Positions 6,598 through 64,000 of a stretch of 64,000 nucleotides of DNA are shown here, piece by piece. The stretch is from Acetoanaerobium noterae (lineage in GTDB: Bacteria > Bacillota > Clostridia > Peptostreptococcales > Filifactoraceae). The notes beneath the pieces were generated by a model. It was not told where the DNA came from and made no database searches. It worked only from the letters and a program-made list of their open reading frames with translations. How positions within the stretch are numbered: the first letter of the stretch is position 1; every line of letters starts with the position of its first letter. The stretch spans positions 434,001 to 498,000 of the forward strand of contig NZ_FUYN01000001.1 in assembly GCF_900168025.1 (NCBI RefSeq), given 5' to 3'. A program made the position numbers and the translations under genes.

Positions 6598-6629
6598 GAT
6601 TATTGTTATCATGACAAAGGGGGATTAAT

Positions 6630-45143: not shown

Positions 45144-45155
45144 AGAAGTTCTCCT

Positions 45156-46124: not shown

Positions 46125-46127
46125 AAT

Positions 46128-47501: not shown

Positions 47502-47531
47502 AATACTCTCCTATTCGACTAATCTATAAAA

Positions 47532-47560
47532 CTTCTAAAGGCAATGCCAAGGGCATTGCC
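47532..47560 (-). terminator. Terminator-like hairpin after the penicillin-binding protein gene
   Basis: Minus-strand GGCAATGCC-CTT-GGCATTGCC, a perfect 9-bp stem, followed by TTTAGAAGTTTT. It lies between the penicillin-binding protein gene and murF, and may divide the cluster into two partly separate transcripts. Confidence 0.65.
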
Positions 47561-49719
47561 TATTCAAACTCCACACTAGCCATGTTGCCTTTTTTAACCA
47601 TAGTACCTGCACTTGGCATTTGCTTTACAGCTTTTCCTGAACCTACAGGTGTAAATTCAAGACCCATATTTTTTAGAAGCTCAGTGACCTCTTTTACAGT
47701 TTTCCCACTCAAATCAGGCATAATAATCGTCTCATCCGTCGATGATCCAATATATAGCATAACTGAAGACCCCTGTGGAACTTTATCTCCAGGTTTTGGG
47801 AAGGAATCGATTACTATTCCAGATGTATCAATCTCTTGCTGAGCATCTAAAGCATGCCCTATTCCTAGCTTATCAAGTTCGATTGCTACTTCAGAGTATT
47901 TTCTATTTCTAATTTCAGGTATTACAATTTTTGAGTCATTATTTTCAATTACAGCTTGAGCATTTGGCTTTACTCCTAAATACCTAAGTATATCCTGCAT
48001 TATTTGACGAACTACAGGACCGGAAACTGTACTTCCAAAATAAGAAGCTCCTTTAGGCTCATCCACTATTACTAGCAAAGCCACCTGAGGATCTTCAATA
48101 GGAGCAACAGCAGCAAAGGAAGCTATGTAGTATCCGCTTTGATATTTTCCATCTATAACCTTTTGAGCTGTTCCAGTTTTTCCGCCAATTCTATATCCAT
48201 CTATTTTTGTAGCTGACCCAGAACCGTTGGCTACAACAGATTCCATAATTGCAAGCATTTGATCTGCAGTGGTTTTAGATACAGCTCTTTTAACTACCTC
48301 AGGCTCAAATGACTCAACTATTTCACCATTTTCATCTGTAACCTCTTTTACAATTCTAGGCTTCATAAGCTTTCCATCATTTGCAACTGCGGAAATTGCA
48401 CTTACCATTTGGATTGGTGTGACAGATATACTCTGTCCAAAAGAAGTAGTAGCTAGCTCTACAGGCCCCATCTTAGAAACTGTATACTGCATTCCAACTC
48501 CTTCGCCTGGAAGCGCTATACCAGTAGGCTTTCCAAACCCAAAAGCAGTGATATATTCAGTGAATTTTTGGGCTCCTAATCTTTGTGCAATCTGTATAAA
48601 AGTTGAGTTTACGGACTGCTCTACTGCTTTAGTAAAAGTTATGCTACCAAATGGCTTACTAGTCCAGTTTTTTATCTTTCTTCCAGCAACCTCGGTGTAA
48701 CCTATATCGTTAAACCACTCTTCTGGATACACAAGCCCTTCTTCTAAGGCTGCAGATGCAGTTACAACTTTAAATGGAGACCCTGGTTCATAAATGTCAT
48801 TTACAGCAGGATTTCTCCACATAGTATATAGCTCTTTTAGCTTTTCCTCATCGCTTAGGGCTGCATCAATTTTTTCTTGAAACAATGGATAAAGCGGAGT
48901 TCTAGAATCATTAGGGTCGTAATCAGGCTTTGATACCATACCTAGGATGTCTCCTGTTTGTGGATCCATTGCAATTGCAATAACTCTCTTGGCATTGTTA
49001 TCTACAAGAGCCTGCTCGACAGCTCTTTCCATGTGATGCTGAATTACCTCATCAATTGTCAAGATTAGGTTTCTTCCATTCACTGGTTCATTATAGCTTA
49101 AGCTATTTGTCGATATCTCTCTATTTCTTGCATCCTTGATGAAAATCTCTCTTCCTGGAATACCCTTTAAGTAAGTATTAAAGGATGCCTCTACTCCTGC
49201 AAGACCAACATTTTCGTTAGATACATGGCCTATTACGTACGAAGCAAATTTCCCATAAGGGTAGTACCTTCTACTTGACTGTTCAAACCAAATACCTGAT
49301 ATCTTGGCTTCCCTTATTTTTTTTACTTTATCCGAATCTATATTTTTTGCAAGAGCAAACCTCTTTTTGCCAGAACTCAAGCTTTTTTTAATTTCTTCCT
49401 TATCAAGCTCAAGTATTTTTGACAAAGTTTCTATCGCAGCATCTTTTTCAGAGTCTTTAATATTGTCAGGCTCAATCCACAAATCATTTTTAGGAACACT
49501 TACTGCTAGTTCTTTACCAGTTCTGTCATATATTATCCCTCTCATGGGATAGATTACAGTATCCTTATATTGCTGCTTCATGGCTTCCTGAGAATATGTA
49601 GGTCCTGCTACTATTTGTATATACCCTAATCTAACTATCAAAGCAAAGATAGCTGTAAGAAAAAGAAATGCTGAAATTTTAATTCTAGTTTTTTTTATAT
49701 CAACTACTTTTTTAGCCAA
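47560..49719 (-). CDS. Class B penicillin-binding protein with PASTA domains
   Basis: A 719-residue peptidoglycan transpeptidase of the FtsI/SpoVD/PBP2x type. One N-terminal span lies at about residues 12-33. The dimerisation domain (about 50-215) has PMRGIIYDRTGKELAVSV. The transpeptidase domain has SxxK in EPGSPFKVVTA near 313, SxN in SVNSTF near 370 and KTG in GGKTGTAQK near 515. Two C-terminal PASTA domains (about 595-719) sense lipid II or muropeptides. Position between ftsL and murF supports a division role; PASTA domains also occur in sporulation SpoVD. It starts with TTG. Confidence 0.94.
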   Translation of the reverse strand: MAKKVVDIKKTRIKISAFLFLTAIFALIVRLGYIQIVAGPTYSQEAMKQQYKDTVIYPMRGIIYDRTGKELAVSVPKNDLWIEPDNIKDSEKDAAIETLSKILELDKEEIKKSLSSGKKRFALAKNIDSDKVKKIREAKISGIWFEQSSRRYYPYGKFASYVIGHVSNENVGLAGVEASFNTYLKGIPGREIFIKDARNREISTNSLSYNEPVNGRNLILTIDEVIQHHMERAVEQALVDNNAKRVIAIAMDPQTGDILGMVSKPDYDPNDSRTPLYPLFQEKIDAALSDEEKLKELYTMWRNPAVNDIYEPGSPFKVVTASAALEEGLVYPEEWFNDIGYTEVAGRKIKNWTSKPFGSITFTKAVEQSVNSTFIQIAQRLGAQKFTEYITAFGFGKPTGIALPGEGVGMQYTVSKMGPVELATTSFGQSISVTPIQMVSAISAVANDGKLMKPRIVKEVTDENGEIVESFEPEVVKRAVSKTTADQMLAIMESVVANGSGSATKIDGYRIGGKTGTAQKVIDGKYQSGYYIASFAAVAPIEDPQVALLVIVDEPKGASYFGSTVSGPVVRQIMQDILRYLGVKPNAQAVIENNDSKIVIPEIRNRKYSEVAIELDKLGIGHALDAQQEIDTSGIVIDSFPKPGDKVPQGSSVMLYIGSSTDETIIMPDLSGKTVKEVTELLKNMGLEFTPVGSGKAVKQMPSAGTMVKKGNMASVEFE

Positions 49720-49733
49720 TTATCTCACTCTCT

Positions 49734-50276
49734 CTAATCTATCTCTATATATACGATTTGGTCATCGCTAGGATACTGCATCTGAAGCTGTTCCATTGCT
49801 ATCTTTTCAATTACATCACTTCTGTTCGAGTGCTCTAGCTGTACTTCTATTTCCTTTTTCTGGTTCTTTATCTCATCTAAATCACGAGTCAAGGTATTAA
49901 TTTCATATTTGAGTTCCGAAATTATAGAATATCTAAACATAAGCGAGCCAAACAAAACGCCTACAAAACACAAGGAAAGTCCTAAAACAGAAATTAAGAT
50001 TCTAGTTCTTACAGTTTTTTTATCTAATTTTTTTCTTTTCTTTACTATTTTTTTTCTTGGAGAGCTTTCCCTTACCTTAGGCTTATCAATATTATTTCTT
50101 TCTCTAGATGATTCGTAGTGAGAGCCATAGCTTACTGGCTCTTTTCTATCATATGAAGTGTTTGATGATTCTTTCTTAGGAAAATCCTTTCTAGGATTAT
50201 CTTTTCTTGTAGAGTGCGAGCCTGAGTATTTTTGTAAACTTCGGCTTTTATAATTTGAGTCCGTATCTTTTTTCAT
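49734..50276 (-). CDS. ftsL: FtsL-like septal protein with long charged N-terminus
   Basis: A 180-residue bitopic protein. The N-terminal 85 residues are charged, rich in Ser, Lys and Arg and probably disordered. One membrane span is at about residues 92-115. A short coiled coil (YEINTLTRDLDEIKNQKKEI) follows and ends with MQYPSDDQIVYIEI, as in FtsL/YllD. It recruits the FtsQ-FtsB complex and class B PBP. The identification rests mostly on the architecture and its position between rsmH and the PBP gene. Confidence 0.82.
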   Translation of the reverse strand: MKKDTDSNYKSRSLQKYSGSHSTRKDNPRKDFPKKESSNTSYDRKEPVSYGSHYESSRERNNIDKPKVRESSPRKKIVKKRKKLDKKTVRTRILISVLGLSLCFVGVLFGSLMFRYSIISELKYEINTLTRDLDEIKNQKKEIEVQLEHSNRSDVIEKIAMEQLQMQYPSDDQIVYIEID

Positions 50277-50291
50277 ACAATCCTCCCAGCC

Positions 50292-51224
50292 TTAGAGCTT
50301 TCTTGCCGCTCTTAACTTTGCACTTCTTGACCTAGGATTCATTTCCACTTCATTTTCACTTGGAAGTATAGGTTTTCTAGTTATAATTTCAACTACTTGC
50401 TTAGAATTACATATGCATACTGGAAACTCAGGTGGACAAGTGCAGCTATATTGTAATTTTTTAAACACATTTTTAACTATTCTATCTTCAAGAGAGTGAA
50501 ATGTAATTACTGCTAAAACGCCGCCCTCATCCATCATGTCCACAGCTGCAAGCAATGTCTTTTCTATTACATCTAGCTCTCTATTAACCTCAATCCTAAT
50601 AGCTTGGAAGGTTCTTTTCGCAGGATGCTGATTTTCATCCCTCATCTTCTTTGGTATAGCCGCTTTTATAGCATCTACTAGCTCAAAGGTCGTTCTTATT
50701 GGCATAGTTGCTCTTCTTTCAACAATAAGCTTTGCAATTCTAGCCGACCAATTTTCTTCGCCATAATCCTTAATAACTCGCTTAAGCTCAGCTTCAGAGT
50801 ATGTGTTAACAACATCGTATGCAGAAAGCTCTGCATTATTGTCCATTCTCATATCTAGTGGTGCATCTTGCATATAAGAAAAGCCTCTTTCTGGAACATC
50901 TAGCTGATGAGAGGATACTCCCAGATCCACTAAAAATCCGTCTATGCTTTCAATGCCTAATTTATTAAGCTCTTCTCTTAAATTTTCAAAATTGCTATGA
51001 ACAAGTATAGTCTTATCCATAAAATCCTTTAGCTTTTCCTTTGCAGCAGAAATAGCATTAATGTCTTGATCAAAACAAATAAGCTTTCCTGAAGTAAGCT
51101 TTTTTACGATTTCAAGAGAATGACCTGCTCCTCCCAAGGTACCATCGACATATATTCCCTCTGGCTTTATATCCAATATGTCAACAGCTTCATTTAGCAA
51201 CACAGTTACATGTTTAAATTCCAC
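50292..51224 (-). CDS. rsmH: 16S rRNA m4C1402 methyltransferase RsmH
   Basis: A 310-residue AdoMet-dependent enzyme (MraW) methylating N4 of C1402 in 16S rRNA. The start [13 protein letters not shown] is typical. [15 protein letters not shown] near 25 binds AdoMet, and [15 protein letters not shown] near 93 and [14 protein letters not shown] near 205 are conserved. The late [15 protein letters not shown] and the C-terminal [13 protein letters not shown] complete the family pattern. It starts at GTG. No mraZ precedes it. Confidence 0.97.
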
Positions 51225-51246
51225 AAGCTTCCTCTCCTACACTCTA

Positions 51247-51996
51247 TTAATTTTCACGATAAGCTGGGCCAATTTTTTTATTTTTGAGTAAATTATATAA
51301 TAAAATTCCCGAAGCTATCATCAATGCGCTAATCAGCTGAGCCACTCTAAACGACCCAAACATTAAACTATCGGTTCTCAAGCCCTCTATAAAAAATCTT
51401 CCTATAGAATACCCTATAAGATATATGCTTGCCATTTGTCCATCAAATTTTTTGTTTTTAAAAATCTTCATAAGAAAAACAAAGATTATTAGATTCCAGA
51501 TAGATTCATATAAAAATGTGGGGTGTACTTTTACTCCATCTACCATTATACCCCAAGGCAAATTAGTAGGTCCTCCGTGGGCTTCCTGATTGATAAAATT
51601 ACCCCATCGGCCTATAGCTTGACCTAAAATCACTGAAGGAGCTACTATGTCTGCCACCTTAAGCACATTCATCTTACGCTTAAAACAAATGATTAGGCCA
51701 CCTAAGATTCCTCCTATAAGTCCTCCATGAATGGCCATACCTCCCATTCTTGTATTGAACATCGATAACCAGTTGTCTTGATAAAGCTCAAGATTGAATA
51801 TTACATAATAAAGCCTAGCTCCAATAACAGCAAGAGGTAAAGCAAGTAGGCTCACATCTAAAATGTGGTCTTCTACGAAGCCCTCTTTTTTACCATTTCT
51901 AATTGCTAACAGTACACCTATTATCATAGCCGCTGATATGATGACTCCATACCAGCGAACTTCCATTCCAAATAAATTAAATGCTACGGGATCCAT
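51247..51996 (-). CDS. lgt: Prolipoprotein diacylglyceryl transferase
   Basis: A 249-residue membrane enzyme that adds diacylglycerol to lipoprotein Cys. The start GMEVRWYGVIISAAMIIGV has the conserved Tyr and Gly. GARLYYVIFN near 60, MAIHGGLIGGILGG near 88 and GQAIGRWGNFINQEAHGG near 125 are the key blocks, the last containing the catalytic Arg. HPTFLYESIWNL follows. LspA is encoded at 18612. It begins the dcw cluster here together with rsmH. Confidence 0.97.
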   Translation of the reverse strand: MDPVAFNLFGMEVRWYGVIISAAMIIGVLLAIRNGKKEGFVEDHILDVSLLALPLAVIGARLYYVIFNLELYQDNWLSMFNTRMGGMAIHGGLIGGILGGLIICFKRKMNVLKVADIVAPSVILGQAIGRWGNFINQEAHGGPTNLPWGIMVDGVKVHPTFLYESIWNLIIFVFLMKIFKNKKFDGQMASIYLIGYSIGRFFIEGLRTDSLMFGSFRVAQLISALMIASGILLYNLLKNKKIGPAYREN

Positions 51997-52007
51997 AATA
52001 TCCTCCC

Positions 52008-53300
52008 TTACTTATCTTCTTTTGGCATAATAATTGAAATTACGCTCATATCATTGTCAAAATGTTCTTTGAGTCTTTCATTTAAAGCTTCAATTTCTAT
52101 AGATTTTAGTACCTCATAATAGTCTAGTATATCCATACCTTTAAAATAATATGACAGATAGTTATTGGCAATAAACTCAATTGAGTCAAAGGATTTTATA
52201 AAGCTTCCTATTTTTTTCTTTTTAGCTCTTTCAAAATCTGCTTCATCAATTCCTGCTATTTTTGCACTTTCTATAGCTGAAAATATTTCATGCTTAACTG
52301 CTTCTATATCTCTAGTTTCTCCAGATATTATTGTATAGCCATAGTCGATGTGCTCTGTGTAATCACAGCTTATTCCGCCAAAGACCAATCCTTCTCTGTA
52401 AAGTTTATCGTACAACTGGCTTCCTTTTTTGAATAATATATCCAAAATCAGCTCAGTCACTATAGATTTTTTCATAAGGTCCTTTGCGCCCAAAACTGCT
52501 GCCTTATCTTTATAACCAATAGAAAACATAGGCACTGATACATCAAGCTGCTCAATAATCTCTTTTTGTCTTACCTCATCAGTTTCTAAAGGCTCAATTC
52601 TTTTTATCTCACCATCAAACATAAATTCGTCTTTTACTGTAGATTTTACAATGTTCATAACTTCATCTTTATCTAGCTCTCCTATGACAAATAAAGCCAT
52701 GTTGGATGGGCTGTAGAAAGTCTTATAGCAGCTGTAAAGCTCATCTGGAGTAATTTTATAGATGCTTTCAACAGTTCCTGCTATATCTATGCTATTGGCA
52801 TGTACTTTGTACATAGCCTTTAGCGTGTTAAAAAACAGCTTCCAATCTGGATTATCGTCATACATTTTAATTTCCTGAGCTATTATGCCTTTTTCTTTTT
52901 CTACATTTTCTTCCGTAAAATATGGTTCCTGAACATATGAAATCAAATGCCTAAGTCCTTCTTCAAAATTTTCAGTTGAAGAAAAAAGATAGGCCGTCAT
53001 ATTAAAGTTTGTAAATGCATTTGCATTTGCACCAATTTTGGCAAAATCATCAAAAGCATTGCTTCCATCTGGCTGTTCAAACATTTTATGCTCTAAAAAA
53101 TGTGCTATTCCTTCATTCACTTTTATTTTTTCATTTGTATGTGGGCTTATAAATTCAAGGTCATTTGAGCCATAATTTGTCGCTAGTACAGCGTATTTTT
53201 TTGTAAAGCCACGTTTTGGCATGAAAAATACGTCCATATTGTTATGAAGTTTTTCATGGTATACATATTCATTCAAAAGTTCATTTTTTATTATTTGCAT
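52008..53300 (-). CDS. M16-family zinc peptidase with intact active site
   Basis: A 430-residue M16 peptidase (YmfH/PqqL-like). The inverted zinc motif HFLEHKMFE at about residues 67-75 (HxxEH) is intact, and the further Glu lies in ENVEKEKGIIAQEI near 130. Two homologous domains are apparent. It is paired with an upstream M16 relative that lacks the motif, an active/inactive pair known for YmfH and YmfF in Bacillus. The substrate is unknown; small peptide processing is likely. Confidence 0.9.
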   Translation of the reverse strand: MQIIKNELLNEYVYHEKLHNNMDVFFMPKRGFTKKYAVLATNYGSNDLEFISPHTNEKIKVNEGIAHFLEHKMFEQPDGSNAFDDFAKIGANANAFTNFNMTAYLFSSTENFEEGLRHLISYVQEPYFTEENVEKEKGIIAQEIKMYDDNPDWKLFFNTLKAMYKVHANSIDIAGTVESIYKITPDELYSCYKTFYSPSNMALFVIGELDKDEVMNIVKSTVKDEFMFDGEIKRIEPLETDEVRQKEIIEQLDVSVPMFSIGYKDKAAVLGAKDLMKKSIVTELILDILFKKGSQLYDKLYREGLVFGGISCDYTEHIDYGYTIISGETRDIEAVKHEIFSAIESAKIAGIDEADFERAKKKKIGSFIKSFDSIEFIANNYLSYYFKGMDILDYYEVLKSIEIEALNERLKEHFDNDMSVISIIMPKEDK

Positions 53301-53326
53301 ATATAGTCTCCTACTTAGGTTTAAAT

Positions 53327-54595
53327 TTAATTATTTGATTTCCCTGTTAAGAAATATACTGTATCAAGATATATTTCTTTGCCTACTTCTACAATATCGC
53401 TTATTTCTACTTTACTAACAAGGCTAATTACATCATCTATTGTTCTATTTGAGTCTTGGATGCTCATGCTGTAGTAGTAATCAGTAAGCGCTGATAAATT
53501 ATCATTTAAGGATTTAAGGTTATTTATTATGAACTTCTTACTATTTGTAAGCTCTTCACTTGTAATATTTCCCTGTTTCATATCGTCAAGCTCCTTGGAT
53601 ATTAGCTCTAGAGCTTTATCGTAATCTGAAATTTCTATCCCAGCAGATATAAACATAAGCCCCTTAAGCTTTTCTAACGAAGAATAAATTGAGTAGCATA
53701 AGCTATGCTTTTCTCTCACATTTAAAAATAGCTTTGAATGAGCTCCACTTCCTAGAACTGCAGAAAACATCATAAGATTATAGTATTTTTCATCTTTGTA
53801 GTCCATGTTGGTTCTGAGTCCTAAAACTAGCTTGCCTTGATTTATATCCATTTCTTCAGTAATATAAGAAGCTTCAGGCTTTTTATAAATCTGTTCTTTA
53901 TCTATTTTTACTAATTCTTTTCTTTCAAAATTAAATTTAGATTTTACTGTATCTATAATTTCATCTCTGTCAAAGCTTCCTGCGATTACAATATCTATAG
54001 GTGAGGTTTCAATTATTTCTTTATAGTGAGAATACAAGCTCTTTTCATCTATTTCTGCCAAATCTTCAATATATCCATCCTCAGATATACTAAAAGGCTC
54101 TTGCTTGCACATATGCTCTATACATTTTTCTACAGCATAATGTCCTTTGTTATTTATTTTTGATTTTATATCCTCTTCTAGGATTGTTTTTTCTATATCT
54201 ACATATTCCCTTATAAATCCGCCGTCGTTAGTAAGTGGATGAAGAATTATCTCCTTTAGCATTGCCAAAGAATCCTCAAATACAGGCTCAGGCAAATACA
54301 TATCTCCTACGCAGTACATTCTAAAGGAAAGCACTTGCCTTTCTCCCATTTTATCAACCGATACCCCTATTGTACTTCCATACAAATCCTGCAATTTCTT
54401 TGCTATTGCTATAGGATTTGGATATCCAACTGTTGCAGATTTTAGCACTGATGGAATAAGAGAATTCTTTGTAACCTCATCTCTTTTTAGAGGTCTTTTA
54501 AGATATACTGTTACTATATTAGTTTTATAATTATCTCTAGGAATGAGCATTAAATTGATCCCATTATTAATATTTATTTTTTCATAGCCCTTCAA
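53327..54595 (-). CDS. M16-family protein lacking the zinc motif
   Basis: A 422-residue M16-fold protein (YmfF-like). The region where HxxEH belongs, around residue 45, has no His or Glu pair, so it is probably catalytically inactive. IAGSFDRDEIIDTVKSKF near 210 and GSGAHSKLFLNVREKHSLCY near 293 are typical M16 blocks of the second half. It probably forms a heterodimer with the active M16 protein 26 bases downstream. It starts with TTG after AGGAGG. Confidence 0.88.
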   Translation of the reverse strand: MKGYEKININNGINLMLIPRDNYKTNIVTVYLKRPLKRDEVTKNSLIPSVLKSATVGYPNPIAIAKKLQDLYGSTIGVSVDKMGERQVLSFRMYCVGDMYLPEPVFEDSLAMLKEIILHPLTNDGGFIREYVDIEKTILEEDIKSKINNKGHYAVEKCIEHMCKQEPFSISEDGYIEDLAEIDEKSLYSHYKEIIETSPIDIVIAGSFDRDEIIDTVKSKFNFERKELVKIDKEQIYKKPEASYITEEMDINQGKLVLGLRTNMDYKDEKYYNLMMFSAVLGSGAHSKLFLNVREKHSLCYSIYSSLEKLKGLMFISAGIEISDYDKALELISKELDDMKQGNITSEELTNSKKFIINNLKSLNDNLSALTDYYYSMSIQDSNRTIDDVISLVSKVEISDIVEVGKEIYLDTVYFLTGKSNN

Positions 54596-54759
54596 GTTTT
54601 TGCCTCCTTAAAATATGCAAAATGTAAATTTTATTCTTAATATTATACCCTTTATTAAAGTCTCATTTTATTATTATAGCAAAGAAACGAATTAATAAGT
54701 ATAATAATGTATTGAAATTTATCGTTCTTCTATAATATAATCAAAATAATGTGCTTGTG

Positions 54760-54788
54760 TTGATATTTTAAAAATTTAATTATTATAT
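54760..54788 (+). promoter_or_regulatory. Possible ychF promoter
   Basis: TTGATA (54760-54765) is followed after 17 bases by TTATAT (54783-54788), about 50 bases before ychF. The 244-base divergent region between the M16 and ychF genes holds nothing else I recognise, and it is so AT-rich that chance matches are likely. Confidence 0.35.
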
Positions 54789-54839
54789 TAAGATGTTTTC
54801 ACGATAATAAACTTAAGAGAGTAAGGAAGGAAAGATTAT

Positions 54840-55937
54840 ATGAAACTTGGAATTGTTGGGCTTCCTAACGTAGGAAAAAGTACTTTATTTAATGCAATAA
54901 CTCAGGCAGGAGCTGAATCAGCTAACTACCCATTTTGTACTATTGAGCCAAATGTAGGTGTAGTTGCTGTACCAGATGACAGACTTGAAAAATTAGCAGA
55001 GCTTTACGAATCAAAAAAATTAGTTCCAACTGCAATTGAATTTTACGATATTGCTGGCTTAGTAAAAGGCGCTAGCAAAGGCGAGGGACTAGGAAACAAA
55101 TTTTTATCTCATATCAGAGAAGTAGAAGCTATCGTACACGTTGTAAGATGTTTCGAAGATAGCAATGTGGTTCACGTAGATGGTAATGTAAATCCAATAA
55201 GAGATATCGAAACTATAAACTTAGAGCTTATATTCTCAGATATGGAAATGCTAGAAAGAAGACTAGCAAAATCACAAAAGGCTGCAAAATCAGATAAAAC
55301 ACTAGCAGCTGAAGTAGACCTAATCAAAACAGTGTTAGATACTTTAGAAAGTGGAAAATCTGCTAGAACACTTGATTTATCTGATGATGAAAAGGCAGTA
55401 GTAAAATCATTCAATTTACTTAGCTCAAAGCCTATAATATATGTAGCCAACGTATCTGAAGAGGAAGTAGCTGACGATGCTAAGGACAACCCATATGTAA
55501 AGCAGGTTCGTGAATTTGCACAAACTGAGGATGCTGAAGTAGTTGTTGTCAGTGCAAAAATAGAAGAAGAAATATCTCAGTTCAATAAAGAAGAAAAAAT
55601 TGAATTCCTTAAGGATATGGGGCTAGATAAATCTGGTCTTGATAAACTAATTCAAGCTAGCTATAAGCTCCTTGGCTTAATCAGTTTCTTAACTGCTGGA
55701 CCTATGGAATCAAGAGCATGGACTATCAAAGATGGAACTAAAGCTCCACAAGCTGGAGGAAAAATTCACTCTGATATCGAAAGAGGATTTATTAGAGCGG
55801 AGACTATATCCTTTGATGATTTAGTAGTTCATGGCGGAAATATGGCATCAGCTAAAGAAAAAGGACTAGTGAGATCAGAAGGTAAAGAATACGTAATGAA
55901 AGACGGAGACGTTGTGCTATTTAGATTCAACGTGTAA
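54840..55937 (+). CDS. ychF: Ribosome-binding ATPase YchF
   Basis: A 365-residue Obg-family P-loop protein (YchF/Ola1). G1 is GIVGLPNVGKSTLFNAIT at about residues 3-20, G3 is DIAGLVKGASKGEGLGNKFL near 65 and the G4 position has NVSEEE instead of NKxD, consistent with ATP preference. A coiled-coil insert (about 130-165) and a C-terminal TGS-like domain (IHSDIERGFIRAE, HGGNMASAKEKG) follow. It is monocistronic with a terminator. Confidence 0.97.
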   Translation: MKLGIVGLPNVGKSTLFNAITQAGAESANYPFCTIEPNVGVVAVPDDRLEKLAELYESKKLVPTAIEFYDIAGLVKGASKGEGLGNKFLSHIREVEAIVHVVRCFEDSNVVHVDGNVNPIRDIETINLELIFSDMEMLERRLAKSQKAAKSDKTLAAEVDLIKTVLDTLESGKSARTLDLSDDEKAVVKSFNLLSSKPIIYVANVSEEEVADDAKDNPYVKQVREFAQTEDAEVVVVSAKIEEEISQFNKEEKIEFLKDMGLDKSGLDKLIQASYKLLGLISFLTAGPMESRAWTIKDGTKAPQAGGKIHSDIERGFIRAETISFDDLVVHGGNMASAKEKGLVRSEGKEYVMKDGDVVLFRFNV

Positions 55938-55944
55938 AATATCA

Positions 55945-55971
55945 GACCACCCAATCGGGTGGTCATTTTTT
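55945..55971 (+). terminator. Terminator after ychF
   Basis: GACCACCC-AATC-GGGTGGTC followed by ATTTTTT; an 8-bp perfect stem starting eight bases after the stop. Confidence 0.92.
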
Positions 55972-56032
55972 AAGGTTACTTAATGCCATTTAAAATTTTG
56001 AATTTCACTACTAGAAAAGTTTCTTCCATAAG

Positions 56033-56932
56033 CTATCTAAATAATAGCCATATTAAAATAGACACTAGCAAAAGGATAAAAGAACCGGATAATAATAATT
56101 TGGATTTCTTTTCAAGAGACTTAAACTTTAGGATGATTCCATTCATTTTACTTTCTGTCTTATTTGTTTTTTCTTTTTTAACTTTTATTTTCTTTTCTTT
56201 TTTTACTTTGTCTTTTTTAGGTTTATTCTTTCCTTGTGTTTCAATTGTAGCTTGAGCTACTGTATCTATATTGTCTAAATCACTTTGTTTTTCAAAAACA
56301 TCATCTGCTATTTCTTCTTCGATTACATCGGTCTTTTCTTCATCTTTGATAAAAATATCTATAGAAGAATATTTTTCTAACACTTCAATTTTGCTTCGTT
56401 CACAATTCCCACAAACACTAGAATTTTTGTCATTAAAATATCCACATACACATCTCCAGCTTAAATCATTGTTTTGAGCAAGAGATATTGCATCTTCTCC
56501 TGCTTTATCCTTAAGCAAGCTTTTTTGTTTATTATCCAAAGCTTCTAAAACAACCATTTCCGAGTTTTCATATTTTAAATCCAGTGCATTTCCATCTTCA
56601 AAAAATCCCCTCACAAGAATTATATCTACTTTTCTAGCATCTGAAAATTCACCTGGTATAAAAAACTTGCCAATACTTCCTATGTCTCCACTTTGAATCA
56701 CAAAGTCCTTTTGGCTTATGATATATGTGTCGTTGTTTAATTTTTCTAAAATTGAATTATAAAATACAACCTCATAATCTAGTGCAACTAATGCTCTAGA
56801 ATGAAGATTCATAACTTCCATTTCTAATTTTAAGTTGCTTTTTATTCCAGATACTTCAGCTGCCATTACCTGAACAAACGAATCTCCACCTACGCTTGCT
56901 CCACAGGGTAAAGATATGATTTTTCTTTCCAT
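56033..56932 (-). CDS. Tail-anchored zinc-ribbon protein of unknown function
   Basis: A 299-residue protein I do not recognise. The first 150 residues look like a beta-rich fold with IISLPCGASVGGDSF near the start. A zinc ribbon (WRCVCGYFNDKNSSVCGNC, two CxC/CxxC pairs) lies at about 160-178. A Lys/Glu-rich, probably disordered linker runs from about 200 to 270. A single C-terminal membrane span (about 278-297) ends the protein, so most of it would face the cytoplasm. It starts at ATG after GGAGG, 23 bases downstream of the helicase gene. A link with the helicase is possible only by position. Confidence 0.7.
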   Translation of the reverse strand: MERKIISLPCGASVGGDSFVQVMAAEVSGIKSNLKLEMEVMNLHSRALVALDYEVVFYNSILEKLNNDTYIISQKDFVIQSGDIGSIGKFFIPGEFSDARKVDIILVRGFFEDGNALDLKYENSEMVVLEALDNKQKSLLKDKAGEDAISLAQNNDLSWRCVCGYFNDKNSSVCGNCERSKIEVLEKYSSIDIFIKDEEKTDVIEEEIADDVFEKQSDLDNIDTVAQATIETQGKNKPKKDKVKKEKKIKVKKEKTNKTESKMNGIILKFKSLEKKSKLLLSGSFILLLVSILIWLLFR

Positions 56933-56955
56933 GCTATCCTCCGTTAATACTAATT

Positions 56956-59442
56956 TTACCTAAAATCTATATACTTTCTTTCAATCTGATGTATAAATCT
57001 ACTTGGCTTATTTAGCTCTTTAGCTTGTTCATCTCCCACGCTATAGGTGATATAGAGATTTGATTTTGGCCTTGTAATCGCCACATAAAAAAGCCTTTTT
57101 TCTTCTTTTAGCCCTTCTCCAGATTGATTTCTAGAGGATGGAAAATTTTCATCAGTGGCGTTGTAAAGGTATACCGTATTGAATTCTAAGCCTTTTGCTT
57201 GATGAACGGTAATAACAGGTACTTGGTCTTTTATATTCAAAAATCTATCTGTATCATTGCCTAGTGAAGCAATTTCTAGTAGCTCAGCCAGGGATTCTAA
57301 TGTCGGCTTATCAGTTTTATCGTATTCTCTAAATATCCTGTACAATTCTCTTAATTTAACGAGTTCTACTGATGATTTGCTGTATTTTTCAATAAGTCCA
57401 GCTCTTATAAGAGCCTCATGCAGTATATCTTGAGGTCGTTTCTCTTTGCTTAGCTCAGCTAATATCCCTAAGTTTCTAGCAATAGGATAAAAATAATCTT
57501 GATACTTTGTGAATACAGCTTGCCTTTTTGCTTGTTTTTCTAATAGTTTAGCAACTACTTTTTCAAGTACCTCTAAGGTACATATCACATCGTCCATAGC
57601 ATTGTGCGTAGGTGTATGGTTTAATGAAAATTCTTTAAATAAATTTCCTAACTTATAGCTAAAAAATCCTGGATAGGTTTTTCTTGTAAGTATTAGAGTA
57701 TCAAATATTTTACTAGATAGCTTGACTATATTTAAATCGATAGCCTTCATATTTTCTTTTAGGATATTTATGTCATAGCTGACATTATGGCCAACTATTA
57801 CAGAGTCCTGAGAAAATAAAAGGAAATCTTCAATAGCACTCTTAGCGTCTACTCCATTTTGAAATAGAAACTCATCTGATATATTATGAATCTTAAATGA
57901 ATCTCCAACACTATAGTCGATTTTTATAAATCTCTCAAATTTTTGTATGACTCCATTTTTCCCACCTTTTAAAGCAGCTATTTGAATTATTTTATCTTTT
58001 TTTATATCTAGGCCTGTAGTTTCTACGTCAAATACCACTACTTCATTTGATTCAAATGCTTCTAAAAGTTCTAGGTATGGATCTTTTGTTTTATAAACCT
58101 TCTCATTTAAAAATTGTCCTATTTCAAGGTATGCTTTTTCCTGCTCCTTAGAAAATTTTTCAACTAAATCGGAATTTATTCTTTTCAGGCTCAAAATATC
58201 CTTGGGGTTCAACATCAACTTAATATAGGCTAAAGCATTTTTTATTTCTTCTCTACTGAAAAATCTAGTTTTGTCCATCACAAACACAGGTATGTTATTT
58301 GATTCTAAATAATCTCCTATAGTTTTAGCATCTTTATTTGTCCTAGCTAAAACAGCTTGATTTGAATATGCCTTATCAGTCTTTTGATTTTCTATTATTT
58401 TTGATAATATATACGCATGCTCAGTATTTAAATTCTTAAATCCTCTAACCTTTATTTTTTCTGTATCTTCATAGACATTTTGATTATCTATGCTATTTCC
58501 TAAGAAAGATTCTGCCGCTTCTAATATGAGCTTTGTAGAGCGATAATTCTCTTCAAACCTCACCGTGTCATAACCTGGGTTATTAATTTTAAAATCCCTT
58601 AAAATCTCATTTGGCTGAGAGCCTCTCCATTCGTATATTGTCTGATGAAGGTCACCAAACAAAGCTATATTACCATGTTTTTGAAACAGCGTTTTAATTA
58701 TTTTGTACTCTATCATATTTGTGTCCTGAACTTCATCCAGCTCTATCCATTCAAAATAGCTTTCCCAGCGCTGTCTAATAGAATCCTGTTTGAAAGCCCC
58801 TGAAACTCCTACAACTAAAGATGTGAAGTCCATAAGATTATATGCTTTTAGCTGAGAAACATACGAGTTTAATATTTCTGAGATAGAGTCAGCTAGGCTG
58901 CCTAGAGAATATCCTAATCCTCTCTCTTTTATTAGCTCTTCAAAGTATGCTTTTGCATCAAACTTTTTTTCATTTATATATGGAAATTCTCTAGCTTGTC
59001 TAATATAATCTACAAACAGCTGCTCTTCCTTGAAATACAAATGACTTTTATATCCTCTATTTACTATTATATCTCTTATAATTTGTCTAGAATCGTCCTC
59101 ATCAATAACAATAAAATCGGGACTCAAAAAAAGATTAACAGCCTCTTGTCTTAGGATAAAGCCACAAAGCCCATGAAATGTAGATATTCTAATTTTATTT
59201 GCAATATCTCCAATTACAATTTCTAAGCGCTTCTTCATGGATTTAGCAGCTCTGTTTGTAAAAGTAAGTAGTAGCATAGCTTCTGGCTTTACTCCAGAGA
59301 TGTATGCATTATATGCCCTAAGTGCTATTACATCTGTTTTGCCTGTACCGGCTGGAGCCATTACAATAAGTGGTCCAAAAACCTTATCGTAAGCTGTCTT
59401 TTGCTCTTTATTTAATCTTTCAATATATTTTACAGGATTCAT
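56956..59442 (-). CDS. UvrD/PcrA-like helicase with internal DnaQ-like exonuclease domain
   Basis: An 828-residue superfamily 1 helicase. Motif I is APAGTGKTDVIALRA near residue 31, motif Ia FTNRAAKSM near 61, motif II ELDEVQDTN near 232, motif III GDLHQTIYEWRG near 262 and motif IV RFEENYRST near 294. Motifs V/VI are TVHQAKGLEFNTVYL near 743 and YVAITRPKSNLYI near 790. Between them, at about residues 460-645, lies a DEDDh exonuclease: VVVFDVETTG, GHNVSYD and HNAMDD. It takes the place where the 2B domain is expected. This suggests one enzyme that unwinds and trims DNA 3' ends; activity is inferred from motifs only. Confidence 0.88.
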   Translation of the reverse strand: MNPVKYIERLNKEQKTAYDKVFGPLIVMAPAGTGKTDVIALRAYNAYISGVKPEAMLLLTFTNRAAKSMKKRLEIVIGDIANKIRISTFHGLCGFILRQEAVNLFLSPDFIVIDEDDSRQIIRDIIVNRGYKSHLYFKEEQLFVDYIRQAREFPYINEKKFDAKAYFEELIKERGLGYSLGSLADSISEILNSYVSQLKAYNLMDFTSLVVGVSGAFKQDSIRQRWESYFEWIELDEVQDTNMIEYKIIKTLFQKHGNIALFGDLHQTIYEWRGSQPNEILRDFKINNPGYDTVRFEENYRSTKLILEAAESFLGNSIDNQNVYEDTEKIKVRGFKNLNTEHAYILSKIIENQKTDKAYSNQAVLARTNKDAKTIGDYLESNNIPVFVMDKTRFFSREEIKNALAYIKLMLNPKDILSLKRINSDLVEKFSKEQEKAYLEIGQFLNEKVYKTKDPYLELLEAFESNEVVVFDVETTGLDIKKDKIIQIAALKGGKNGVIQKFERFIKIDYSVGDSFKIHNISDEFLFQNGVDAKSAIEDFLLFSQDSVIVGHNVSYDINILKENMKAIDLNIVKLSSKIFDTLILTRKTYPGFFSYKLGNLFKEFSLNHTPTHNAMDDVICTLEVLEKVVAKLLEKQAKRQAVFTKYQDYFYPIARNLGILAELSKEKRPQDILHEALIRAGLIEKYSKSSVELVKLRELYRIFREYDKTDKPTLESLAELLEIASLGNDTDRFLNIKDQVPVITVHQAKGLEFNTVYLYNATDENFPSSRNQSGEGLKEEKRLFYVAITRPKSNLYITYSVGDEQAKELNKPSRFIHQIERKYIDFR

Positions 59443-59524
59443 TAAATCATCCTCTCAATTAACCTTATTGTAGTTTTTATATTTTTAATATAGACTCATA
59501 ATTATAGCAAAAGGAGGTACTATC

Positions 59525-60511
59525 GTGATTCAAAAAGTATATGAAAATATCTATCTAAACAGTGTAAGATTGCCAAATACCCCTCTTAAGTCTCTCAATA
59601 GTTATATTATAACAGATGCTAATCGCGCATTGATAATAGATTCTGGGTTTAATACCCAAATTTCAAGCGAGGATTTTTTCAGTGGAATTAAAGAGCTAGG
59701 CATAGACATTAAAAACACTGACTTGTTCTTGACTCATCTTCACGCTGACCATAGTGGCTTAGCTAGCATGTTTCAGAGAGAGTCATCTGGAAAAGTATAT
59801 TCTAGCATCAATGATGCTTCATATGTCACAAAGATGATTCAGAACAGCTTTTCAGATTTATTTGTTATGAGTCTAAAACTTTTTGGAATGGAAGCATCTG
59901 AAGATTTTTTCAGTAGCCATCCTGCAGTTTCATATTGTCCTGATTCAGCAATAGATTTCACTTATGTCAAGCCTAATGATATTATTAAAATAGCAGATTT
60001 CGAATTAAATGTCATATCTGTCCCTGGGCATACGCCTGACCATATATCTCTGTATGATTCTAATAAGAAAATCTATTTCTCAGGCGATCATATTTTAGAT
60101 TCTATATCTCCAAACATTGCTTTTTGGGGTGATGAGCATCCTGATATGCTAGGAGAATATCTATCTAGCTTAGATAAAACTTCAGCCTTAGATATAGATA
60201 TAATATTTCCATCTCACAGAAATATAATCAAGGATTACAAAAGAAGAATAGCTGAAATTAAAGCTCATCACTTCGAAAGGCTAAGTGAAGTGCTAGGACT
60301 GCTCGATGAAAATGGTTCAAAAGCAACTGTTATAGAAATAGCTTCGGCTATGCACTGGGACTATAGAGCCGAGAGCTTTGACGCGTTTCCAAATGCTCAA
60401 AAATGGTTTGCGTGCTCTGAAGCCATGGCACATTTAGAACACCTAAAAAGCATTGGTAAAATAAGTTCTTCAGACATCCAAGGAATTCGTTATTATTTCT
60501 ATAACCCTTAA
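59525..60511 (+). CDS. Metallo-beta-lactamase-fold hydrolase
   Basis: A 328-residue MBL-fold protein. The metal motif is LTHLHADHSGLA near residue 71 (HxHxDH). VPGHTPDHISLYD near 165 gives the next His, YFSGDHILD near 190 the bridging Asp and FPSHRN near 230 the last His. The C-terminal 90 residues form a helical domain like that of MBL proteins related to hydroxyacylglutathione hydrolase or LACTB2. Substrate unknown. It starts at GTG after AGGAGG, seven bases, divergent from the helicase gene. Confidence 0.88.
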   Translation: MIQKVYENIYLNSVRLPNTPLKSLNSYIITDANRALIIDSGFNTQISSEDFFSGIKELGIDIKNTDLFLTHLHADHSGLASMFQRESSGKVYSSINDASYVTKMIQNSFSDLFVMSLKLFGMEASEDFFSSHPAVSYCPDSAIDFTYVKPNDIIKIADFELNVISVPGHTPDHISLYDSNKKIYFSGDHILDSISPNIAFWGDEHPDMLGEYLSSLDKTSALDIDIIFPSHRNIIKDYKRRIAEIKAHHFERLSEVLGLLDENGSKATVIEIASAMHWDYRAESFDAFPNAQKWFACSEAMAHLEHLKSIGKISSSDIQGIRYYFYNP

Positions 60512-60721
60512 CTTGTTTACTTATCTTTTAATCTCTTTCTTAATAATGTTTCATTCTTTGATATATGATGTTATAAATTTTTCTCTATGCATTTTTCTTT
60601 CAATTCTTTATATATATTTATTTTGTTATATATCTAAACTTCTTTTGTAAAAAATACTTAATTTTTTGTATAAATAGTATATAATGGTGTAAGAGTTAAT
60701 TAAATTTGAGAGGTGATAATC

Positions 60722-62191
60722 TTGGAAAGAATATTAAATTTTGAACCAAAAAAAGTTTTCACATATTTCGAGGATTTGACAAGAATACCAAGAGGTTCTG
60801 GAAACGAAAAGGAAGTTAGTGACTATCTTGTAGAGTTTGCAAAAACTAATAATTTAGAATATATTCAAGACGAATATATGAACGTAATAATAAAAAAACC
60901 AGCTACACCTGGTTATGAATCTCTTCCTGCTGTTATACTTCAAGGCCATATGGATATGGTAAATGAAAAAAATAACGACAAAGTGCATGATTTTGATAAA
61001 GACCCTCTTACTTTAAAAATAGTTGGAGATGATATCTATGCAGATGAAACTACACTAGGAGCAGACAACGGAATAGCTGTTGCTATGGCTATGTCAATTT
61101 TAGCTTCATCAGATGTAGCACATCCAGCACTAGAAGCAGTTTTCACAGTAGAAGAGGAAACAGGACTTGTTGGAGCTCTAAAATTAGATGGCTCAAAACT
61201 AGACGGAAAATATCTAATCAACATCGACTCTGAAGAAGAAGGCGAGCTTTTAGTAAGCTGTGCAGGTGGCTCAAGAATTAAATTAATTCTTCCAGTATCA
61301 TATACTGATGTAGATAGCAATAGAGTTGATTTAAAAGTATCTGTAAAAGGCCTATATGGTGGTCACTCTGGTATGGATATAATCAAAGGCAGAGGTAATG
61401 CAAACAAGCTAATCGGTAGAATTTTAGACTCTATGATAACTGAAGGCATTAACTTTGAACTTTTCAATGTCAATGGCGGTTCTAAAATGAATGCTATTCC
61501 AAGAGAAGCAGATGCCGTAATTGCTGTAAATTCATCTGACAAAGCTAAAGTAGAAGCACTTATCTCAAAATGGAATGATATTCTAAAAAATGAATTAAGA
61601 GGCAAGGACGATAACGTTCAAGTTGTTGTTTCTGAAATCAAGCAAGATTCTACTAAGGTCTTTGATGAAAACTCAAAGTTGACTGCAATTGCTACTCTTA
61701 TGATGATTCCAAATGGCATCATGAGTATGAGTCATGCTATTGAAAATCTTGTAGAGAGCTCAGTTAATCTAGGTGTTCTAACTACTACAGATTCTTCAGT
61801 AAGCTTTGAATGTGCTCCTAGAAGCTCTGTAGGTAGCTTAAAAGAAGCTATAAGAAATCAATATAAAGCTTTAGCTTATCTTGTTGGTGCAGAGCTTGTA
61901 ACTGATTCTGATTACCCTGAGTGGCAATACAATCCTGATTCAAAGCTTAGAACTCATTTTGAAAATGTTTATAAGGATATGTACAACAAAGACAGCAAAG
62001 TCGTAGCTATCCACGCTGGAGTAGAATGTGGACTATTTAAAGAAAAGCTTCCTGAGCTAGATATGATATCAATAGGACCAAATATGGCAGATGTTCATAC
62101 TCCAAATGAGCACGTTAGCATCTCTTCAATCCAAAGAACATATAGCTATCTACTTGAAGTTTTAAAAAGATTTAATGAAATAGAAAGATAA
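60722..62191 (+). CDS. pepD: Aminoacyl-histidine dipeptidase PepD
   Basis: A protein of about 489 residues of the M20 PepD family, which splits X-His and other dipeptides. Zinc ligands are in VILQGHMDMVNEK near 73 and ETTLGADNGIAVAMAMS near 106, with the general-base Glu in FTVEEETGLVG near 140. LYGGHSGMDIIKGRGNA near 215 starts the lid domain, and the final His is in VHTPNEHVSI near 460. TTG 60722 is eight bases after GAGAGG; the GTG at 60713 overlaps that site. A -10 TATAAT lies at 60680-60685 with no clear -35. Confidence 0.93.
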   Translation: MERILNFEPKKVFTYFEDLTRIPRGSGNEKEVSDYLVEFAKTNNLEYIQDEYMNVIIKKPATPGYESLPAVILQGHMDMVNEKNNDKVHDFDKDPLTLKIVGDDIYADETTLGADNGIAVAMAMSILASSDVAHPALEAVFTVEEETGLVGALKLDGSKLDGKYLINIDSEEEGELLVSCAGGSRIKLILPVSYTDVDSNRVDLKVSVKGLYGGHSGMDIIKGRGNANKLIGRILDSMITEGINFELFNVNGGSKMNAIPREADAVIAVNSSDKAKVEALISKWNDILKNELRGKDDNVQVVVSEIKQDSTKVFDENSKLTAIATLMMIPNGIMSMSHAIENLVESSVNLGVLTTTDSSVSFECAPRSSVGSLKEAIRNQYKALAYLVGAELVTDSDYPEWQYNPDSKLRTHFENVYKDMYNKDSKVVAIHAGVECGLFKEKLPELDMISIGPNMADVHTPNEHVSISSIQRTYSYLLEVLKRFNEIER

Positions 62192-62202
62192 AAAAATAAA
62201 GT

Positions 62203-62231
62203 GACCCCTAGATGAGTTTCATCTAGGGGTC
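62203..62231. terminator. Bidirectional terminator between pepD and PFOR
   Basis: A 12-bp perfect stem (GACCCCTAGATG / CATCTAGGGGTC, five-base loop) lies between convergent genes. An A-rich stretch (GATAAAAAAATAAA) precedes it and TTAGTTT follows, so it can act for both. Confidence 0.85.
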
Positions 62232-62311
62232 TTAGTTTGTGATGTATTTTCTGGGTCTATATTTTCAGGTCATTTTATAGTATTCCGATTTTTACTAATC
62301 AGAATTAAATT

Positions 62312-64000
62312 CTAGTATTGCATTTCAGCCATTCTTTTGTATCCAGCATATCTTTCTTTTGCTTCTTCTTCAGCTTTATCAAATAACTCTTCAGCTATTT
62401 CAGGGAAAGTAGCTTTTAAAGAAGTATAACGGATTTGCTTGTCAATAAATTCTCTAAAGCTTGCAGTTGGCTCTTTTGAGTCAAGAGTAAATGGATTCTT
62501 ACCTTGCTCCTTAAGCTCTGGGTTGAATCTGTATAAATGCCAGTATCCAGCCTCTACAGCTTGTTGAGTATTAGCCTGAGTTCTTCCCATACCTTCTCTT
62601 AATCCGTGAGCCACACATGGAGCGTAAGCAATAATTAGAGATGGTCCATCGTATTTCTCAGCTTCGATAAGAGCTTTCATAAGCTGATTCTTATCAGAAC
62701 CCATACCAACTTGAGCTACATATACATAACCGTAAGTTGCAGCAATCATACCAAGGTCTTTCTTCTTAACTTTTTTACCTGAAGCAGCAAATTTAGCAAC
62801 TGCAGCTGTAGGTGTAGATTTAGAAGACTGTCCACCAGTATTTGAGTAAACCTCTGTATCCATTACAAGAACATTTACATTTTCTCCTGATGCAAGAACG
62901 TGATCTAGTCCACCGTATCCGATGTCATAAGCCCAACCGTCTCCACCGAATATCCATACTGATTTTTTCACTAGGAAGTCAGCTTTTTCTTGGATTTCAT
63001 CTCCTAATTTCTTAGCATCTCCAGTTAAAGTAAGAATTGCTTCTTTAACTTTTAATGTAGCTTCTTTACTAGCATCTGCATCTTCCATAGAAGTCATCCA
63101 CTCTTCGAAAGCAGCTTTAGCTTCAGCAGGAATATCCATCTCTACTAGCTCAGTCATTATATTTTTAAGTCTTTCTCTCATTGTTTTAACTGCTATTGCC
63201 ATACCGTATCCATACTCAGCATTATCTTCAAATAATGAGTTAGCCCAAGCTGGTCCTTTGCCTTGTGCATTCTTAGTATATGGTGTAGATGGAGCTGATC
63301 CACCCCAGATTGAAGAACAACCTGTAGCATTTGCAATTATCATTCTATCTCCAAATAATTGAGTAACTAGCTTAGCATATGGAGTCTCTCCACAACCAGC
63401 ACAAGCTCCTGAGAACTCAAGAAGTGGTTGAGCAAACTGGCTTCCTTTGATAGAATTTTTAGCCATTAAGTTTTCTTTGTAAGATACACTTGAATGAGCA
63501 TAATCAAATCTTCTAATTTCAGCTGTTTGAGTTTCGATAGGCTTCATAATAAGAGCCTTCTCACCTTTTTTACCTGGACAGATATCTGCACAGTTTCCAC
63601 AGCCTGTACAATCAAGAGGAGTAACCTGAATTCTATATCCAAGTCCTTCAAAGCCTTTACCCATTGCTGGAAGTGTTTCGAAGCCTTCAGGTGCACCCGC
63701 TTTTTCTTTGTCATCTACTAAGAAAGGTCTAATAGCAGCATGAGGACATACGAATGAACACTGGTTACATTGGATACAATTTTCTGCTTGCCACTCAGGA
63801 ACATTAACAGCTATACCACGTTTTTCGAAAGCTGCTGATCCATGAGGCATATGTCCATCTTCAGCTCCAACAAATGCTGATACTGGAAGATCATCTCCAG
63901 CTTGTGCATTAACTGGTCTAAGGATATTCTTGATGAAATCTGGCTCATCTTCATTTTTAGTGATGATTGACTCTGCAGTAACGCTAGCCCAAGCAGCAGG
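62312..64000 (-). CDS. Pyruvate:ferredoxin (flavodoxin) oxidoreductase, C-terminal part
   Basis: The frame is open from the right window edge to 62312, giving the last 562 residues; the full enzyme is usually about 1170 residues in one chain. The ferredoxin domain has two [4Fe-4S] motifs, CIQCNQCSFVCPHA and CTGCGNCADICPGK. The thiamine diphosphate domain has FSGACAGCGETPYAKL and GDGWAYDIGYGGLDHVLA, followed by DTEVYSNTGGQSSKSTPTAA. It converts pyruvate and CoA to acetyl-CoA, CO2 and reduced ferredoxin, a core anaerobic step. The Met at 63850 is internal, not the start; codons before it (PAAWASVTAES) are conserved PFOR sequence. Confidence 0.97.
   Translation of the reverse strand, partial: PAAWASVTAESIITKNEDEPDFIKNILRPVNAQAGDDLPVSAFVGAEDGHMPHGSAAFEKRGIAVNVPEWQAENCIQCNQCSFVCPHAAIRPFLVDDKEKAGAPEGFETLPAMGKGFEGLGYRIQVTPLDCTGCGNCADICPGKKGEKALIMKPIETQTAEIRRFDYAHSSVSYKENLMAKNSIKGSQFAQPLLEFSGACAGCGETPYAKLVTQLFGDRMIIANATGCSSIWGGSAPSTPYTKNAQGKGPAWANSLFEDNAEYGYGMAIAVKTMRERLKNIMTELVEMDIPAEAKAAFEEWMTSMEDADASKEATLKVKEAILTLTGDAKKLGDEIQEKADFLVKKSVWIFGGDGWAYDIGYGGLDHVLASGENVNVLVMDTEVYSNTGGQSSKSTPTAAVAKFAASGKKVKKKDLGMIAATYGYVYVAQVGMGSDKNQLMKALIEAEKYDGPSLIIAYAPCVAHGLREGMGRTQANTQQAVEAGYWHLYRFNPELKEQGKNPFTLDSKEPTASFREFIDKQIRYTSLKATFPEIAEELFDKAEEEAKERYAGYKRMAEMQY

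Follow-up and report, generated by a model that had tools for sequence, protein, structure and literature searches.

What can a single protein accomplish that joins a complete superfamily 1 (SF1) helicase to a DnaQ-like exonuclease, and where in the helicase does the nuclease sit? The question is raised by a gene on the minus strand (56956-59442) of the 64,000-nucleotide stretch of Acetoanaerobium noterae DNA analyzed here (the window), whose open reading frame (ORF) begins with ATG and, by both the ORF listing and Pfam, encodes one uninterrupted chain of 828 residues; the plus-strand translation of the same interval contains 62 stops. As judged from alignments and a predicted structure, the exonuclease is inserted within the 2B domain of the helicase, with 2B sequence on both sides.

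Three Pfam domains are recognized in the 828-residue protein, namely UvrD-helicase (PF00580; residues 10-282, E 3.7e-54), which corresponds to motor domain 1A with 1B (58597-59415), UvrD_C (residues 294-801, E 1.1e-102) and RNase_T (PF00929; residues 469-626, E 4.9e-28). All helicase motifs by which membership in superfamily 1A (SF1A) was judged, Q, I, Ia, II, III, IV, V and VI, are found, among them the Walker A stretch APAGTGKT (residues 29-36; 59335-59358) and motif II, DEVQD (residues 236-240; 58723-58737). The chain runs from motifs I to IV into the start of 2B, then through the exonuclease and the remainder of 2B to motifs V and VI, which by Pfam and motif evidence belong to motor domain 2A (residues 744-793; 57064-57213). 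The DEDDh signature is likewise complete: Exo I, FDVETTG (residues 471-477; 58012-58032), supplies the DxE pair D472 and E474, Exo II, GHNVSYD (residues 551-557; 57772-57792), supplies D557, and Exo III, HNAMDD (residues 613-618; 57589-57606), supplies H613 and D618. The original prediction, made from the letters alone, that a full set of SF1 motifs and an entire DEDDh exonuclease share one chain is thus borne out.

The nearest record found, A. noterae DSL2, encodes a fusion protein 98.8% identical over 828 residues and aligns with the window at the nucleotide level at 97.9% (45062-56178) and 98.6% (56285-64000), and a second species of the genus carries a fusion protein at 57% identity. The near-identical protein in DSL2 and the more distant homologue rule out an assembly join, while a chance motif or frame artifact is ruled out by the Pfam domains, the conservation of the motifs and the DSL2 copy. 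As a separate observation, a 2.63-Mb A. noterae record, NZ_CP154629.1, is labeled a plasmid, yet it is collinear with the window and is probably a mislabeled chromosome.

The original prediction had also placed the exonuclease where the 2B domain is expected, and in this respect it has to be corrected. Alignments with relatives and with the PcrA of the same genome place the exonuclease behind the first helices of 2B and ahead of about 100 further residues of that domain; the first half of 2B occupies residues 394-464 (58051-58263), the inserted exonuclease residues 466-640 (57523-58047) and the second half residues 641-738 (57229-57522). Structure prediction, proposed at the outset as a check, recovered the UvrD fold including 2B together with the DEDDh insert. 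An AlphaFold model built from 29 rows (mean predicted local distance difference test score, pLDDT, 87.6; predicted template modeling score, pTM, 0.82) could be aligned by VIA-align with DNA-bound UvrD (2is1_A) over 605 of 649 residues (Z 36.6, root-mean-square deviation 3.2), and the four-domain arrangement of 1A, 1B, 2A and 2B is seen in this alignment. With PcrA 1pjr, just 455 of 623 residues were aligned, a difference in keeping with a 2B domain that is retained and adopts the closed position. In the same predicted model, residues 461-641 match the exonuclease of SaDinG (Z 23.0), residues 457-637 match that of PolC (Z 22.9), and 3'hExo is also among the fold matches (Z 19.6). Replacement of 2B by the exonuclease is ruled out by the alignments and the model, in which 2B is kept but split.

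One circumstance that would have spoken against the prediction, poor conservation of the exonuclease residues, does not apply: D472, E474, D557, H613 and D618 are intact in 33 of the 33 fusions checked, and all five are invariant in the 29-row alignment. The helicase motifs are kept across the same 33 fusions wherever the ORF extends to them; an alignment designated A4 was made without L052, L057 and L062, which are broken or cut. The exonuclease part of the window and that of A. noterae differ by 4 synonymous and 3 non-synonymous codons, too few to gauge selection. What does vary is a short stretch in the first half of 2B. In a further alignment (A5), G[IV]G is present in 23 of 29 rows and four rows have the variants NVG, NIS, NMG and GIS, while the two rows from which the GIG stretch is absent are those of the window and its sister species. 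Passages of PMC13238157 describe how the 2B domain of UvrD touches the duplex through the GIG motif, how 2B is autoinhibitory and how 2B deletion activates Rep monomers, and an excerpt of PMC3797037 reports that mutation of the GIG-motif residue Gly424 of Deinococcus radiodurans UvrD stimulated its 3'-5' activity; in the same portions of both sources, the 2B arm of UvrD and Rep rotates by 130-160 degrees and restrains unwinding. By analogy, the loss of the duplex-contact loop in this genus leads us to predict a weaker 2B brake in Acetoanaerobium, and with it a less restrained helicase that would be active as a monomer.

Could the fusion simply be the PcrA of this organism? On the pcrA equivalog model TIGR01073 it scores 332.5 bits, under the cut-off of 911.2, and a canonical pcrA is found elsewhere in the genome (C3:437083-439224) with 934.1 bits, so that both the anticipated separate gene and the claim of an enzyme distinct from PcrA are upheld, and identity of the two is ruled out. 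When 25 fusion-bearing genomes were searched for pcrA, 18 had a match over 911.2 bits; the remaining 7, several of which are metagenome assemblies, had a near-miss, partial or split match or none. In passing, the PcrA frames of two relatives (L024 and L025, from G015 and G020) are 1059 and 1097 residues long and contain an intein-like stretch inside motif III, beginning with C after GDDDQ and ending in HN before SIY; G428 and G442 also have over-long PcrA frames.

How widely does this architecture occur? Among 40 relatives, the fusion was seen in the window's genome, in one congener (57%) and as a divergent copy in G010 (29%). Of the 391 genomes in the class of the window, 10 matched at E<=1e-22; 4 of them, our own included, carry fusions, and the frames of the other six were either of PolC size or short exonuclease ones. 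For Veillonella's class, which we take to be Negativicutes, the threshold of 1e-30 was passed by 82 of 250 genomes, 77 of them with E<1e-90 and frame lengths of 728-1012 residues; in that of Nostoc, 17 of 388 genomes passed, the seed included, 14 of them with frames of 757-905 residues. These counts (4/391, 77/250 and 17/388) were derived from frame lengths and from matches to the insert together with the adjoining parts of 2B. A scan of genome contigs gave at least 27 fusion-type loci (L039-L065) among 80 listed matches, in Veillonella, Selenomonadaceae, Clostridium, Marinisporobacter, cyanobacteria and others, with L052 broken and L057, L062 and L063 cut by contig ends. One Clostridium genome (G441) has apparently two fusion-sized copies, on C11 and C7, with frames of 868 and 834 residues. 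The insert lies at the same place in three Bacteroidota plasmid records examined, from Prevotella nigrescens, Chryseobacterium and Bacteroides fragilis, the last being split into two ORFs. On the Chryseobacterium plasmid (L256, 1-9167) the fusion comes after genes for a DEAD/DEAH helicase and a long AAA-domain protein, an arrangement that resembles a defense operon. As for carriage by phages, tblastn of a 365-residue region against 50,697 phage records returned 13 records, each with less than 80% query coverage, and no viral fusion was seen among 80 listed viral-contig matches, which fall mostly in the exonuclease part. The survey of the architecture that had been called for therefore reveals a scattered bacterial family, spanning Bacillota, cyanobacteria and Bacteroidota plasmids. 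The caveat attached to the original prediction, that the fusion might be a widespread and already characterized family, is correct in its first half: the family has a fairly wide distribution, and a PADLOC profile covers its cyanobacterial branch. As to the second half, our literature search found no paper describing an SF1 helicase whose 2B domain carries an exonuclease or characterizing the fusion family; the word "helicase" is absent from PMC8934634, as is "UvrD" from a survey of RNase H-like nucleases (PMC3985635).

The members of the family stay together in two trees, both of them quick searches with limited outgroups. In that of the helicase core, from which 2B and the insert were omitted, 40 fusions among 67 rows fall on one side of a branch with support 91, in a group that holds one very long branch (L021) and that divides into a mainly cyanobacterial part, a Bacillota part and the window pair apart from these; L024, L007 and L008 (PcrA) and L051 and L059 (fusions) were omitted from it, and 8 of the 11 paralog loci fetched for it gave a usable row. 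In that of the exonuclease, 42 fusions among 71 rows are separated with support 99 from PolC and others (an outgroup of 26 PolC rows plus 3 others). As far as sequence relationships go, this is consistent with one insertion event, after which helicase and exonuclease were inherited together.

What, then, would such a protein do? From its class, the motor is predicted to move 3'-5' on single-stranded DNA, and the exonuclease, from its own class, to trim 3'-5'. In the mechanism that we propose, the SF1A motor (1A/2A) would load on single-stranded DNA, move 3'-to-5' and pry the duplex open, while the DEDDh 3'-to-5' exonuclease carried in the 2B arm would trim a 3' end kept close to the junction; the 2B arm would thus position the nuclease beside restraining unwinding. 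Because motor and nuclease share one polarity and would act on one strand, a damaged or displaced 3'-ended strand could be unwound and removed in a single pass. We tentatively propose, with a confidence that stops a little short of an even chance, a nuclease-helicase that serves DNA repair by itself, unwinding 3'-to-5' and trimming 3' ends, for which we infer both activities, their polarity, a DNA rather than an RNA substrate and the repair role itself.

In the window, the fusion sits between a metallo-hydrolase gene and a downstream gene of 299 residues (56033-56932, minus strand, from the ORF listing), and the flanking genes are common to the congener, in which the order of the fusion and the 299-residue gene is also kept. 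The original prediction had left open "repair or mobile-DNA processing"; since the window's neighbors are common to the sister species, repair is favored here over a mobile element, while the mobile or defense side of that alternative draws on loci in cyanobacteria, in one Schwartzia locus and on a Bacteroides plasmid, as discussed below. The 299-residue product, which has a Cys-rich knuckle, a Lys-rich stretch and a C-terminal hydrophobic helix, is possibly a co-transcribed partner of the fusion; it gave no Pfam match below E 0.05 and no PADLOC match. Within this gene, 106 bases of the window (56179-56284) are missing from the aligned A. noterae stretch, whose version is shorter and ends in the same hydrophobic helix. 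A partner such as the GajA that accompanies Gabija GajB was found in neither of the two window-neighbor ORFs scanned with Pfam; the genes taken here to encode YchF, an M16 peptidase and PFOR bear names assigned without a Pfam scan.

At 17 Bacillota loci, the window included, at least one neighbor was scanned with Pfam, and neighbors at 8 of these were also scanned with PADLOC. By Pfam, dnaX and recR lie upstream of the fusion in Veillonella (L039), and in a Selenomonas metagenome assembly (L041, 4233-10391) the fusion lies between comEC and holA, a context that may possibly link it to DNA uptake or replication. The other scanned neighbors mostly have roles in metabolism, transport or regulation or match no family. 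At L056, a separate small exonuclease gene of the RNase_T family (5964-6611) lies directly upstream of the fusion. As to reverse transcriptases, the window's genome (G000) has no RVT_1 match at E<=1e-5, and none like those of UG35 or UG14 was found at 26 other loci examined outside cyanobacteria. RVT_1 matches are present in 13 of 27 genomes, G427 and G431 among them. For the other 11, in which the contig of the fusion is numbered, the match lies on a different contig in 10, which in a draft assembly is weak evidence, and some 57 kb away in G430. On these grounds a general partnership with reverse transcriptases was rejected for Bacillota.

Several observations weigh against a repair enzyme and raise the standing of an anti-phage nuclease-helicase, which would unwind and degrade the DNA of invading or replicating phages either alone or together with reverse transcriptases, restriction-modification or other defense genes. 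The family is patchy, with only 3 further genomes among the 391 of the window's class, a spread more like that of an accessory or defense gene than of core repair. Of 19 cyanobacterial loci, whose neighbors were scanned in part and several of which are cut by contig ends, 7 adjoin defense-type reverse transcriptases or restriction-modification genes. The former are adjacent in four, UG35 three times (RT_UG35 matches of 1078.6 bits at L061 and 1185.4 bits at L138) and UG14 once, at the Nostoc mirabile locus L060 (5877-10738), where a KilA-N/BstA-like gene, the helicase-exonuclease and RT_UG14 (696.1 bits) stand in a row; at L136 (216-4777) a DDE transposase on the opposite strand interrupts the UG35 gene beside the fusion. 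The other three have a HindVP-type restriction enzyme and a C5 methylase next to the fusion, namely L137 (2335-6932), where they were assigned by Pfam, and L140 and the partly broken L149, where they were assigned by BLAST clustering. Two more cyanobacterial loci have possibly defense-type neighbors, a DNA methylase and a second UvrD-nuclease at L144 and an AAA_15/AAA_21 ATPase at L146. Among Bacillota, RhuM and DUF1016_N lie directly upstream of the Schwartzia fusion, the three standing in a row (L044, 5122-9224), and match the PADLOC candidate defense families PDC-S05 and PDC-S02, which lowers the repair reading and raises the defense one; the split copy of the Bacteroides fragilis plasmid likewise has a RhuM gene before it. 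The exonuclease domain of the window protein by itself matches positions 400-514 of the PADLOC profile RTasHel (PDLC03802; E 2.6e-15), so that the helicase which PADLOC assigns to DRT defense systems already has the fusion architecture, and two cyanobacterial fusions match that profile nearly end to end (976.2 and 1087.5 bits). However, the window protein, which aligns in one stretch (residues 8-825 to profile positions 4-674), reaches 436.6 bits, barely above the 432.5 bits of its own PcrA, so that the score fails to separate the two and is ruled out as proof of a defense role; at best the window protein would be a distant RTasHel member. Moreover, the window's genome yielded no reverse transcriptase at the threshold given above, and L044 is the only one of the 17 Bacillota loci with defense-type neighbors by Pfam and the only one of the 8 with strong candidate-defense matches by PADLOC, L056 having matched a general DEDDh model. 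We accordingly regard a defense role for the window protein as a serious contender, though one less likely than repair.

Two further readings take issue with the substrate or with the nuclease itself. DEDDh enzymes also act on RNA, and SF1A proteins can be chiefly protein-displacing translocases, both of which likewise detract from a DNA-repair nuclease-helicase. The motor might then displace RNA polymerase or RNA-DNA hybrids, with RNA 3' ends being trimmed by the DEDDh domain, as the fold match to 3'hExo could suggest, and PcrA and UvrD are linked to R-loops in portions of PMC8318588. Nevertheless, the nearest exonuclease profiles and folds are those of the DNA enzymes PolC, DnaQ and DinG, and we consider an R-loop or RNA-processing enzyme improbable. 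That the exonuclease is merely structural or regulatory, the protein acting as an ordinary PcrA-like helicase, has a precedent in DinG proteins with a pseudo-exonuclease domain, some of which are mentioned in an excerpt of PMC11981726; given that the five catalytic residues are kept in every fusion checked, we deem it very improbable.

The repair enzyme that we prefer and the defense contexts of its relatives can conceivably be accommodated in one scenario, which is speculative and, taken as a whole, rather doubtful. One insertion of a proofreading-type exonuclease would have founded a family in which rotation of 2B gates both nuclease and motor; its members would serve 3'-end processing in Bacillota chromosomes and would have been recruited repeatedly into defense operons, with UG35, UG14 and restriction-modification in cyanobacteria and with RhuM and DUF1016 in Bacillota and Bacteroidota, while in the Acetoanaerobium branch the GIG brake would be gone and monomers would be active. 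For the UvrD family, 2B serves as the regulatory hinge, whose control of unwinding was long debated. A natural family in which 2B is loaded with a nuclease, and one branch of which is minus the duplex-contact motif, would thus offer a direct test of the role of 2B. In addition, RTasHel as partner of UG35 reverse transcriptases gains a concrete biochemical prediction, and the fusion family ties a defense component to a possible repair enzyme.

How does the window protein compare with known systems? With RTasHel, the reverse-transcriptase-associated helicase of DRT systems, it shares the helicase with exonuclease insert, but it differs in its PcrA-like score, in the lack of a detected reverse transcriptase in its genome and in belonging to a separate branch of the family. 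With PcrA, UvrD and Rep of SF1A it has in common the motifs of the motor and the full four-domain set, 2B among them, and it is set apart from them by the exonuclease of approximately 175 residues in 2B, by having no PcrA-type C-terminal tail and by the missing GIG of its genus. AddA/RecB likewise combine an SF1A motor with a nuclease in one chain and serve in repair and in the degradation of phage DNA; their nuclease is a C-terminal PD-(D/E)XK domain, for which the window protein has no Pfam match at E<=1. The eukaryotic WRN protein also combines a helicase with a 3'-5' exonuclease in a single chain, and both are considered to work 3'-5'; its motor is of the RecQ type, from superfamily 2 (SF2), and its N-terminal exonuclease belongs to a different subfamily. 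A DEDDh exonuclease of the same fold as that of the window protein is fused to a helicase in ExoDinG, the DinG of Staphylococcus aureus and Bacillus subtilis. For a trade-off between ExoDinG and the fusion, Veillonella's class offers no contrast: TIGR01407 is matched in 2 of its 250 genomes, in each case without the exonuclease part and never over the cut-off. According to PMC12345164, ExoDinG has an SF2 motor of 5'-3' polarity and an N-terminal exonuclease, whereas the window protein has an SF1A motor and an exonuclease in 2B, with polarities predicted to match on one strand. In the same source, as a precedent that favors the repair reading, both activities of the Staphylococcus aureus enzyme are needed for resistance to crosslinks (mitomycin).

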